From an uncultured Faecalibacterium sp. (GTDB taxonomy: Bacteria; Bacillota; Clostridia; Oscillospirales; Ruminococcaceae): 8,343 bases of DNA. The translations under genes were made by a program, and so were the position numbers. Shown here piece after piece: positions 4,458-8,343 of this stretch (its first letter is position 1; each line of letters starts with the position of its first letter). The stretch is taken from assembly GCA_934540955.1 (NCBI GenBank), contig CAKTCY010000075.1, forward strand, positions 1 through 8,343, given 5' to 3'. Under the pieces are notes generated by a model. The model had not been told where the DNA came from and searched no databases. It worked only from the letters and a program-made list of their open reading frames with translations.

Positions 4458-4493
4458 GGGCTAGCGGAGCGTCCGCAGACGCTCCGCTAGCCC
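4458..4493 (-). terminator. Strong hairpin ending the second LysR transcript
   Basis: Perfect 16-bp arms, GGGCTAGCGGAGCGTC (4458-4473) and its complement (4478-4493), have a 4-nt loop. It begins about 54 nt after the LysR stop codon. On the minus strand it is followed only by ATTTTCACG, a short U-tract, so termination is likely but not textbook. Confidence 0.65.
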
Positions 4494-5987: not shown

Positions 5988-6527
5988 ATGCACAATATCT
6001 ATTTCACCCGCCACGGCGAGACGGTATGGAACGTGGAAAATAAGATCTGCGGCATGACCGACAGCCCGCTGACCGCCCGCGGGCAGCAGCAGGCGCGGCA
6101 GCTGGGCGAGCTTGTCCGGGACAGCGGCCTGCACATTGACGAAATTCTGTACTCTCCCCTTTCCCGCGCCGCCGACACCGCAAAGGCCATTGCCGCCGCT
6201 ACCGGTCTGCCCGCCCGCTGCGAGCCACGCCTGCGGGAGCAGTGCTTCGGCAAGTACGAGGGCACACCCCGGGACGGTGCGGAGTTTCGCCGCTCCAAGA
6301 CCCACTTTGCCGACCGCTATGTGGGCGGCGAAAGCATGATGCAGCTGGCGCAGCGCATCTACAACCTGCTGGACGAGCTGAAGGCCGACACCGGCAAGAC
6401 CTACCTGCTGGTAGCACACAACGGCATCGCCCGGGTGGTGCACTCCTATTTTTACGACATGACCAACGAGGAATACGCCGCTGCGGGCATCAAAAACTGC
6501 CAGCTGGTGGAGTATACCTTTGAATAA
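5988..6527 (+). CDS. Histidine phosphatase (phosphoglycerate mutase-like)
   Basis: This 179-residue protein is a complete cytoplasmic enzyme of the histidine phosphatase branch 1. The phosphate-accepting motif is TRHGET (7-12), with catalytic His9 next to Arg8. The other active-site residues are Arg60 in SPLSR, the acid Glu84 in LREQCFGKYEG, and His144 in VAHNG. The GES segment at 114-116 is also typical. Members remove phosphate from small metabolites, as GpmB-like and CobC-like proteins do; the substrate cannot be read from sequence and no cobalamin genes are nearby to favour CobC. The ATG at 5988 follows AAGGAG (5975-5980) at 7 nt, which overlaps the preceding stop codon, so translation is probably coupled. 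A strong terminator begins directly after the stop codon. Confidence 0.9.
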   Translation: MHNIYFTRHGETVWNVENKICGMTDSPLTARGQQQARQLGELVRDSGLHIDEILYSPLSRAADTAKAIAAATGLPARCEPRLREQCFGKYEGTPRDGAEFRRSKTHFADRYVGGESMMQLAQRIYNLLDELKADTGKTYLLVAHNGIARVVHSYFYDMTNEEYAAAGIKNCQLVEYTFE

Positions 6528-6561
6528 GAAAAGCCGCCGGAGCCCCGGCGGCTTTTCTTTT
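6528..6561. terminator. Bidirectional intrinsic terminator
   Basis: Perfect 13-bp arms, GAAAAGCCGCCGG (6528-6540) and its complement (6545-6557), enclose a 4-nt loop, starting at the base after the phosphatase stop codon. The plus-strand side ends in TTTTCTTTT, and the minus-strand side in CTTTTCTTATTC. It ends both the phosphatase operon and the convergent MATE gene. Confidence 0.9.
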
Positions 6562-6569
6562 ATGGCGCG

Positions 6570-7919
6570 TCAACTATGACGGTAATGGAATTTCTGATCC
6601 TTTGTCACGAACATATACACGGTCACTGCCAGCGTGGCAAGCTCGGCGGCGGTGACCGCCAGCCACACACCGTCAAGACCCCAGAGGGCGGGCAGGAGGA
6701 GCAGTGCGGCCATCTGGAACAGAAACGTGCGCAGAAAGGAGATGAGGGCGCTTGTCACGCCGTCGCCCAGCGCCGTGAAGAAGGAGGACGCATAGATGTT
6801 GAAGCCCTTGATGAGGAAGCACAGCGCATACAGCCGGAACGCGCGGCTGGTCAGCGCCAGCAGCTGGGCGTCGTAGCCCACAAAGATGCGCGCCACATGG
6901 GGAATGATCACCATGGACGCCGCCGTCATGCTCACAGACACCACGGCGATGAGGCGCAGGCTCTTCTGGTAGAGATTGTGCACCTCGGCATGGTTGCGGG
7001 CACCGTAATGAAAGCTGACGATGGGTGCGCTGCCCACCGCATAGCCCACGAACACGGCCACGAACAGGAAAGCGGCATACATGATGACGCCGTAAGCCGC
7101 CACGCCGTTTTCCCCGATCAGCCGCAGCAGCTGGAAGTTATACAGGATATTGACCAGCGACATGGAAAGGCTGGTCATCAGCTCGGAAGAGCCGTTGATG
7201 CAGGCATCCCACAGCACGCGGCCGTAAAACTGCGTTCTGCACAGGTGCAGACAGCTGGTGTTGTTGTGGCTGATAAAATAAAACACCGGCAGCACGCCGC
7301 CCACCAGCTGGCTGATAAGGGTGGCAAGGGCAGCGCCCTCCACGCCCCAGTGCAGCATGCCCACCATTACCACGTCCAGCACCATGTTGGTGCAGCCTGC
7401 ACCTACGGTGAACCAGAAGCCCAGATGCGGCTTTTCGGCGGTGACGAAAAAGCTCTGGAATAGATTCTGCAAAGCGAAGCCCGGCAGCGCCAGCATCAGG
7501 ATGCGCCCGTAGCGCACGGCGTAGTCCAGCAGTTCGCCCTTTGCGCCCAGCAGCACGGCGACCGGCCGTAGGAACAGGATGCCCAGCACGGACAGCACAC
7601 CGGCCGAGATAAGCGCTGCCCACATAAACATGGAAAAATAGTGGTCGGCTTTTTTCCGGTCGCCCTCGCCCAGCGTGATGCCTACGATGGCGCTGCCGCC
7701 GGTGCCCAGCATAAAACCGATGGTGCCCAGCAGCTGTGGCAGCGGCATGATGAGGTTGACCGCCGCAAAGGCCGTTTTGCCCACAAAGTTGGAGACGCAC
7801 AGGCCGTCCACGATGCCATAGATGGAGGTGAACAGCATGGTGCCGATGCAGGGCAGCACGAACCGCAGCAGGCGGGAATAGTTGAAATGATCGGACAATT
7901 GGATGGTTTTCTTTGGCAT
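6570..7919 (-). CDS. MATE-family efflux transporter
   Basis: This 449-residue protein has the usual length and twelve-helix pattern of MATE transporters, which export cationic drugs or metabolites in exchange for Na+ or H+. Family segments are TSIYGIVDGLCVSNFVG (31-47), AAVNLIMPL (52-60), MLGTGGSAIVGITLGEGDRKKA (split across 70-91), NMVLDVVMV (178-186), WGVEGAALAT (191-200) and SAPIVSFHYGARN (297-309). The overall type resembles MepA-like proteins of Firmicutes. The ATG at 7919 is preceded by AAGGAGGAG within 4-5 nt. The gene has its own strong promoter and a leader of about 170 nt with elaborate structure, so expression is probably controlled after initiation. The substrate is unknown; if the leader is a guanidine-IV element, guanidinium would be the expected signal. 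Confidence 0.92.
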   Translation of the reverse strand: MPKKTIQLSDHFNYSRLLRFVLPCIGTMLFTSIYGIVDGLCVSNFVGKTAFAAVNLIMPLPQLLGTIGFMLGTGGSAIVGITLGEGDRKKADHYFSMFMWAALISAGVLSVLGILFLRPVAVLLGAKGELLDYAVRYGRILMLALPGFALQNLFQSFFVTAEKPHLGFWFTVGAGCTNMVLDVVMVGMLHWGVEGAALATLISQLVGGVLPVFYFISHNNTSCLHLCRTQFYGRVLWDACINGSSELMTSLSMSLVNILYNFQLLRLIGENGVAAYGVIMYAAFLFVAVFVGYAVGSAPIVSFHYGARNHAEVHNLYQKSLRLIAVVSVSMTAASMVIIPHVARIFVGYDAQLLALTSRAFRLYALCFLIKGFNIYASSFFTALGDGVTSALISFLRTFLFQMAALLLLPALWGLDGVWLAVTAAELATLAVTVYMFVTKDQKFHYRHS

Positions 7920-7945
7920 AACTCCTCCTTTTTTGAACTCTGCAC

Positions 7946-8058
7946 ATACAAAAAGGCCGGATAAGAACCACCGCTCCGGTGCATTCCCTCTTCTGCTGCG
8001 GCACTACGGTGCCCACAGCCTCCGGGAAGCACGAACGGTGACATCTTATCCGGCCTTT
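7946..8058 (-). ncRNA. Structured 5' leader RNA of the MATE gene, candidate riboswitch or attenuator
   Basis: Read on the minus strand, a perfect 15-bp outer stem (8044-8058 with 7952-7966) closes a 77-nt domain and is followed at once by a U-rich run, as in a terminator. Inside are CACCG/CGGTG (8036-8040 with 7969-7973), a longer stem (8024-8032 with 7979-7988, one bulge) and an inner hairpin (8009-8019 with 7995-8004) with loop CGUA. CACCG at 7977-7981 can instead pair with 7969-7973 in a 3-nt-loop hairpin, which excludes two of the other stems. Such alternatives are a mark of regulatory RNAs. Guanidine-IV (mepA motif) riboswitches are known upstream of MepA-like MATE genes in Firmicutes, so that class is the first to test, but I could not confirm its consensus from memory. 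Confidence 0.6.
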
Positions 8059-8095
8059 CAATTACGTTGAAACAGCCCTCCGATGAGCGAAAAAC

Positions 8096-8124
8096 AGTAT
8101 AACAAAGTTTATTTTTTATGTCAA
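8096..8124 (-). promoter_or_regulatory. Promoter of the MATE gene
   Basis: On the minus strand a perfect -35 box TTGACA (8119-8124) and TATACT (8096-8101) are exactly 17 bp apart, the best promoter in the window. Transcription would start near 8089, about 170 nt before the ATG at 7919. It begins 14 bp after the stop codon of the preceding gene, with no terminator between. Confidence 0.85.
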
Positions 8125-8137
8125 GCCCGGTTTTGCA

Positions 8138-8343
8138 TCACTCCGTCGCAAGGCGGACAAAGGGCGCGATGGCGTTAGCGTCGCCGTGGCGGACGATGGA
8201 GTAGGTGATGTCGCAGTAGGGCTGGATGGCGGTGCTCTTTTCCACAGTGGAGATGAGCAGCACCTGCAATTGCAGCCGGCGGAACAGCTCCATCATGGGG
8301 CGGATGCGGTCGCTGGTCATCTTGCTGAAGGCTTCGTCCAGCA
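8138..8343 (-). CDS. C-terminal end of an SbcC/MukB/JetC-like ATPase (partial)
   Basis: The last 67 codons of a gene that enters from the right edge. The visible start reads LDEAFSKMTSDRI, a Walker B motif (hydrophobic run ending in DE) followed by the D-loop of SMC-type ATPases. After it come a helix (MMELFRRL), the strand LQVLLISTVEK, and STAIQPYCDITYSIVR, the closing part of the ATP-binding head. This ending fits large coiled-coil ATPases such as SbcC, MukB/MksB and the Wadjet subunit JetC. In Wadjet loci jetD usually follows jetC, but here the next gene is a MATE transporter, so this may be another MksB-like system, a different gene order, or an incomplete locus. The stop codon is TGA at 8138-8140. 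The 5' end and partners are outside the window. Confidence 0.7.
   Translation of the reverse strand, partial: LDEAFSKMTSDRIRPMMELFRRLQLQVLLISTVEKSTAIQPYCDITYSIVRHGDANAIAPFVRLATE

Follow-up and report, generated by a model that had tools for sequence, protein, structure and literature searches.

A widespread RNA module in the leaders of MATE efflux genes as a candidate transcriptional ON riboswitch

The MATE Gene Is Preceded by a Structured Leader with Its Own Promoter

The window, that is, the whole 8,343-nucleotide stretch of DNA from an uncultured Faecalibacterium sp. that was analyzed here, carries on its minus strand a gene for an efflux transporter of the MATE family. The first 240 aa of its product match MatE with E = 5.6e-27, and the protein also matches MATE models, all of these matches lying under the curated cut-offs. 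The gene has a leader that runs from 8124 to 7919 on the minus strand and in which a promoter is followed by a folded module and then by a terminator (Table 1). Within the module, the elements follow the order CAUC-GGAG-[hairpin]-GGAUAA-GAUG, and the CAUC of module 1 starts ten bases past the −10 box. The promoter had been overlooked in an earlier note on this DNA, and its presence makes the sequence a leader, not merely a terminator.

Table 1. Features of the MATE gene leader in the window
Feature	Sequence	Position	Strand	Basis or remark
Promoter	TTGACA-17-TATACT	8096–8124	minus	11 of 12 consensus letters; only one found within 7900–8343
Module 1, aptamer candidate		8042–8085	minus	predicted fold, covariation, and cross-phylum conservation
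Module 1, P1	CAUC / GAUG	8082–8085 / 8042–8045	minus	
Module 1, internal loop	GGAG × GGAUAA	8078–8081 × 8046–8051	minus	
Module 1, P2 hairpin	CGUA at 8063–8066	8052–8077	minus	
Terminator 5′ arm, also part of module 1	GGCCGGAUAAG	8045–8055	minus	sequence
Linker (18 nt), 5′ strand of the long stem carrying module 2		8024–8041	minus	
Module 2		7984–8023	minus	second module copy nested in the terminator hairpin
Module 2, core	GGAG × AGAAGA	8020–8023 × 7989–7994	minus	
Module 2, hairpin	CGUA at 8005–8008	7995–8019	minus	
Module 2, helix P1′	UUCCC / GGGAA	3′ strand 7984–7988	minus	
Hairpin named in the earlier note	CACCGGAGCGGTG	7969–7981	minus	not conserved
Terminator 3′ arm	CUUAUCCGGCC	7955–7965	minus	sequence and folds
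U run	five U	7950–7954	minus	sequence and folds
Shine-Dalgarno of the MATE gene	AAGGAGG	7924–7930	minus	sequence
MATE-family efflux transporter gene	449 aa	6570–7919	minus	profile matches

The earlier note had described a perfect 15-bp closing stem leading into a U run, with further helices inside it, and both are present, the stem being formed by 7952–7966 with 8044–8058 on the minus strand. Folded alone, the 116 nt at 7948–8063 reach −70.4 kcal/mol (z = −9.3), and none of 200 shuffles is as stable. A strong stem with a U run, downstream of a same-strand reading frame that ends at 8138, could be a plain terminator of the upstream gene, or a chance fold. We give almost no credence to this explanation, against which speak both the promoter standing between the upstream frame and the hairpin and the fact that a terminator needs neither a conserved module nor the covariation of that module described below. 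It is possible that the hairpin also blocks read-through from the upstream gene.

Of the upstream frame, only the C-terminal end falls within the window (8138–8341, minus strand). By eye alone it resembles an ATPase, and it stops shortly before the MATE promoter begins. Elsewhere in the window, a strong stem, rich in GC and accompanied by runs of A and of U, lies at 6515–6586 between the convergent MATE gene and a plus-strand frame ending at 6527 and looks like a two-way terminator; a long near-perfect hairpin, GGGCTAGCGGAGCGTC...GACGCTCCGCTAGCCC, is found at 4458–4491.

The Module Is Wide but Patchy in Its Distribution

Within the genus, 5 of 61 genomes match most or all of the leader with 79–95% identity, and three more match only its first part. 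When the genus leaders are aligned in full, the loops are kept and the helices vary. TTGACA is kept in all eight genus relatives, with a −10 box that reads TATACT in five and TATGCT in three. A first covariance model, built from eight leaders, strongly matched 8 of 31 genomes of the genus, all previously found. Across 396 genomes of the family, the same model produced nine matches at E ≤ 0.1, of which two were known, one was a chance match (L057), five lie before MATE-like genes, and one (L051) lies before a GNAT-like gene, these genes being judged by eye. The family matches indicate that the core is a short module, which is often single.

Scanning a GTDB genome set with the pattern CATCGGAGG-N14–44-GCYGGATAAGATG yielded at least 119 loci, whose titles include Clostridia and Bacilli as well as isolates such as Bacteroides faecis, B. 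finegoldii, and Brachyspira pilosicoli. Among the 80 matches listed by title, 16 come from Bacteroidales, two from spirochaetes, one from Elusimicrobiales, and one from a bacterium without a named group, the rest being Bacillota. A looser pattern that leaves out P1, TCGGAGG-N14–34-GCYGGATAAG, is present in 33 of 394 genomes of the window's order, against one genome with the reversed pattern. By covariance search, 15 of 31 genomes of the genus match at E ≤ 0.1, and a search with strict filters over 398 genomes of the phylum found only six at E ≤ 0.01, one of them doubtful (L222). The class is thus wide but patchy. On reading, the weak matches L040, L041, L050, L057, and L222 were judged to be chance or doubtful and were excluded.

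Ten loci located before MATE-like genes (L055, L240, L241, L243, L244, L248, L253, L254, L256, and L264) form a subgroup with a U that would bulge in P1. Their P1 strands differ and yet are complementary, the pairs being UGC/GCA, CAC/GUG, or CGGU/ACCG.

The Helices of the Module Covary

The alignment search took 100 of the 119 matches listed, leaving out L075 and L159–L176. The expected strand was matched by 98 loci, L089 and L114 being the exceptions, and one of the 99 aligned rows is a reverse-strand match of L119. In this alignment, which was fitted to the structure and 16 of whose rows are among the 20 seeds of model R2, 93.6% of cells are paired; shuffles reach 74.3%, and sliding the partners gives no more than 42.9%. 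None of 500 shuffles reaches any of five measures. Of the 16 pairs, 12 have two-sided changes, namely three of four in P1, all five in upper P2, and all four in P3. No such change occurs at the base of P2 (GGY/GCY), where two of the three pairs vary on one side only and the third departs only by unpaired cells. Because the scan pattern fixed the first module, the P1 changes in the 99 rows come from second modules, and P1 was therefore retested at places where no pattern set its strands. There, at least three pairs form in 26 of 31 cases, against 13.7 expected. Complementarity also holds between the aligned terminator arms, L064 having the one two-sided change.

A riboswitch candidate is recognized by covarying helices that accompany highly conserved unpaired letters across phyla, and the module displays both. 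The earlier note, which took the leader for a transcriptional switch ahead of the MATE gene, had named covariation in related leaders beforehand as its test; such covariation is found, extends well beyond the genus, and supports that reading. Judged by its anatomy, the module is part of a real conserved switch.

The Module Probably Lies at the Start of the Transcript and Is Predicted to Give Way to the Terminator

Promoters were counted at 118 of the 119 matches listed, one locus with a short flank being left out. In 88 of these 118 loci, a promoter with at least 9 of 12 consensus letters lies ahead of the module, against 11 of 118 after shuffling, and in 80 of the 88 (80/118 loci) the −10 box ends 8–10 nt before CATC. 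From this fixed spacing it follows that the module is probably the first thing transcribed.

GGAGG and the AUG of GAUG might start a short frame, and the leader would then act by leader-peptide or ribosome-dependent attenuation. GGAGG is indeed a Shine-Dalgarno sequence, 7 nt from the AUG across the hairpin, and the AUG is replaced in L241, L243, and L253 by GUG, which is likewise a start codon. We nevertheless judge this mechanism highly improbable. No start codon is found in L240, L244, L248, and L254 (GCA), L256 (GCU), and L264 (ACC), where P1 keeps three to four further pairs, nor in L235 (AGA), where two P1 pairs are kept; second modules mostly lack an AUG, and by eye the frames after the AUG end at differing places. 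Two longer frames through the window leader, of 120 and 307 codons, were also rejected; by eye, they stand in another phase relative to the MATE start in L006.

Folds were predicted for 115 of the 119 matches listed (L094, L114, L147, and L156 were left out). In transcripts ending before the terminator 3′ arm, P1 is present in 93 of the 115 loci, and only 65 have the complete module, consisting of P1 and the P2 base, as their minimum-energy fold. In full-length folds, at least 7 of the 10 arm pairs form in 109 of the 115 and P1 is kept in none, the addition of the 3′ arm bringing a median gain of 13.4 kcal/mol. The same change from module to terminator is predicted for the leader in the window. 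Because GGCCGGAUAAG serves both as part of the module and as the terminator 5′ arm, only one of the two structures can exist at a time. The terminator is by far the stabler of the two, so a ligand could act only through timing and not at equilibrium.

The mutually exclusive helices that the earlier note had proposed thus have a counterpart in these two predicted structures, although not at the place it had named. The competing hairpin it had pointed to is kept in L001 and L003, relatives with 94–95% identity, altered in L002, and lost in the alignment from L004–L008. The conserved competitor is instead module 1, which lies further upstream, partly beyond the region that the note had delimited, and which uses the terminator 5′ arm.

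MATE Genes Follow the Module in Most Loci

A first gene was found for 113 of the 119 matches listed, and in 102 of the 113 it is MatE (103 of 114 when the window is counted). The other eleven are three cytidylate-kinase-like genes (PF13189), three MFS genes, one each of B3/4, ABC transporter, and HD, and two without a family. A second scan, some of whose loci belong to the same genomes as the first, gave MatE in 27 of 30 first genes. The three non-MatE loci of that scan show no terminator arm by eye and look like chance matches in coding sequence. Such a steady position before genes of one function, combined with an expression platform (the terminator in 109 of 115 folds among the matches listed), is a further trait by which a riboswitch candidate is recognized. 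A mobile element with inverted ends was rejected as an explanation, given that these ends are the terminator arms and that the module, the promoter spacing, and the gene context all persist from phylum to phylum.

A cytidylate-kinase-like gene stands directly 3′ of the switch in L067, L146, and L163 (PF13189) and, by eye, in L226 of the genus; in L067 and L226, a MATE-like gene comes next after it, again by eye.

The conserved unpaired letters and the antiterminator–terminator layout would fit a protein site equally well, which opens the way to protein-dependent antitermination, with an RNA-binding regulator on the GGAG × GGAUAA loop holding the module against the terminator. This appears unlikely to us: the same core recurs in Bacillota, Bacteroidales, and spirochaetes, and no regulator family is found among the 113 first genes of the matches listed, a count that concerns first genes only.

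The Module Differs from Known Riboswitch Classes

By covariance search, neither the leader nor its relatives match any family in Rfam 15, so the Rfam match for which the earlier note had suggested looking did not appear. With permissive thresholds, the window gives four weak matches, none of them in the leader. Ten relatives searched in the same manner gave six weak matches below the cut-offs, which were taken as chance and five of which lie in L005 outside the module. MIR8139, a eukaryotic miRNA model, covers the L055 hairpin on the opposite strand with 33 bits against a cut-off of 90 and was likewise attributed to chance.

Guanidine-I (RF00442) resembles the module in that it controls efflux genes and, by eye only, in a GGAUAA stretch common to both. 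Unlike the module, however, SMR-gene loci are recognized by the Rfam model of guanidine-I, which matches 7 of the 13 and 4 of the 9 that were scanned.

The earlier note had suggested membership in guanidine-IV (GGAM-1, mepA motif). As described in the accessible parts of PMC7736828, PMC12186494, and PMC11611296, this class controls transcription through a terminator hairpin as an ON-switch and has MATE genes among its targets, a layout that the module shares by prediction. In the accessible parts of the guanidine-IV literature, the commonest target is the SMR gene (sugE), G66, U67, and G72 of the second loop in L. lactis are at least 97% conserved and essential, and the loops of the C. botulinum RNA pair through A29–U72 and C30–G71. 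The module described here differs in pairing CAUC/GAUG around its hairpin and in having neither AC/GU pairing between loops nor the second-loop pattern that guanidine-IV conserves. It also occurs in Bacteroidales, whereas Bacteroidetes are absent from the phyla listed for guanidine-IV in the accessible text. The essential letters, written as GU-N4-G between the terminator arms, fit only 22 of 115 loci among the matches listed, which speaks against the proposed membership.

A second comparison made use of two SMR-gene leaders from one Butyrivibrio genome, L210 (minus strand) and L215 (plus strand), whose loops, ACCGAG and UUAGGUCUUAG, agree with the positions published for guanidine-IV. The signature ACCG[AG]...AGGTNNNAG, which we made ourselves from these two leaders and the published positions, is present in L210 and L215 but in none of the 119 matches listed and not in the window. 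Neither of the two leaders has an Rfam 15 match at the gathering threshold, so a missing Rfam match alone decides nothing on guanidine-IV, a class that may be absent from Rfam. A broader guanidine-IV pattern was uninformative, as it hit 1 of 299 genomes and its reversed control hit more; the guanidine-IV comparison therefore rests on the published positions and on two leaders of one genome.

Gd4v, an orphan variant described as extremely similar to guanidine-IV in sequence, has transaminase genes in over half of its cases according to the portion of the source available. Like the module, it is described there with MATE and GNAT genes, in Bacteroidetes, and with a hairpin on the terminator; by the same partial description, the module differs in being neither guanidine-IV-like in sequence nor before transaminase genes. 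A module that is guanidine-IV or Gd4v, merely diverged, would account for the layout, since the available descriptions give a 5′ hairpin, a terminator, and an interaction between them. It would also account for the shared gene contexts and hosts, namely MATE and GNAT genes in both (our GNAT case, L051, was judged by eye), B3/4 with guanidine-IV, and Bacteroidetes with Gd4v. Against it, besides the poor fit of the essential letters and the missing loop signature, stands the fact that the 113 first genes among the matches listed include no SMR family and no aminotransferase family, and we consider such a divergence very unlikely.

A published description of the motif was not found in the literature searched, and the class may stand in supplementary files, closed journals, or preprints outside that search. 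The accessible main text of PMC11109978, PMC8632094, and PMC6429828 contains no MATE transporter.

A Proposed Mechanism and Its Tandem Form

We consider it quite probable that the MATE leader is one member of a widespread family of RNAs without a match in Rfam 15 and that it acts on transcription as an ON riboswitch: a compound would steady a small 5′ aptamer that takes up the terminator 5′ arm. An orphan ON riboswitch for a toxic compound is the most likely identity. According to the predicted folds, the module would form first and would be replaced by the terminator once the 3′ arm is made, the terminator 5′ arm being GCYGGAUAAG of the module. A ligand would bind the GGAG × GGAUAA internal loop and hold the module; the held module would keep the terminator from forming, RNA polymerase would reach the pump gene, and the pump would export the bound compound. 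If this is true, a common class of RNA sensors for multidrug pumps is unlisted in Rfam, its aptamer is compact (about 44 nt) and testable, and MATE pumps are tied to one compound, so that the purpose of the pump becomes directly testable and the ligand is likely its natural substrate.

A second module lies inside the terminator hairpin in 16 of the 119 matches listed, plus the window. Two further loci, L147 and L156, were called tandem by the script and were moved to the singles by eye. The linker between the two modules measures 17–20 nt in all 16 tandems listed and 18–21 nt in the window, L004, L005, and L006. In 16 of 20 tandems, P1′ forms three or more pairs, with many different sequences, whereas L089, L100, L114, and L004 have fewer; the count leans high since the placement of P1′ is the script's best choice. 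Among the matches listed, hairpin 1 contains CGUA in 15 of the 16 tandems, the exception being L089 with CGUG, but in only 7 of 103 singles (Fisher p = 6e-13, in a kinship-blind test that ignores possible shared descent of the tandem loci). All 16 tandems also have CGUA 25–60 nt past GAUG, in the region of hairpin 2.

Tandem riboswitches, for example those for glycine and guanidine-II, consist of two copies of one aptamer in a row. In guanidine-II, the loops bind each other by ACG loop pairing. The present arrangement differs in two respects: the terminator hairpin encloses the second copy, which keeps a fixed distance, and the letters common to the loops are CGUA. The skew of CGUA toward tandems suggests that the two aptamers touch, and we propose from this pattern of conservation that hairpins 1 and 2 probably meet through their CGUA letters. 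In the window, where the aptamer is doubled and the second core has drifted but is still recognizable, such a contact would make the response steeper. In tandems of the window type, the second core reads AGAAGA where the first has GGAUAA. As this second core need not pair with the terminator, the remaining R-G-A-N-R-A may show, from comparison of the letters, which ones a putative pocket needs.

A more far-reaching version, which we put forward tentatively and hold to be possible without being likely, is an unreported multi-phylum riboswitch class that senses a toxic gut compound and turns on MATE pumps, in which the tandem would be a two-aptamer device joined by a CGUA kiss, both aptamers having to be filled to beat the terminator. 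If true, the tandem would represent a new coupling of two aptamers, one within a terminator. At L225 (1501–1604, minus strand), a divergent module pair with a short linker and no CGUA was also seen, lying by eye before an SMR-like gene.
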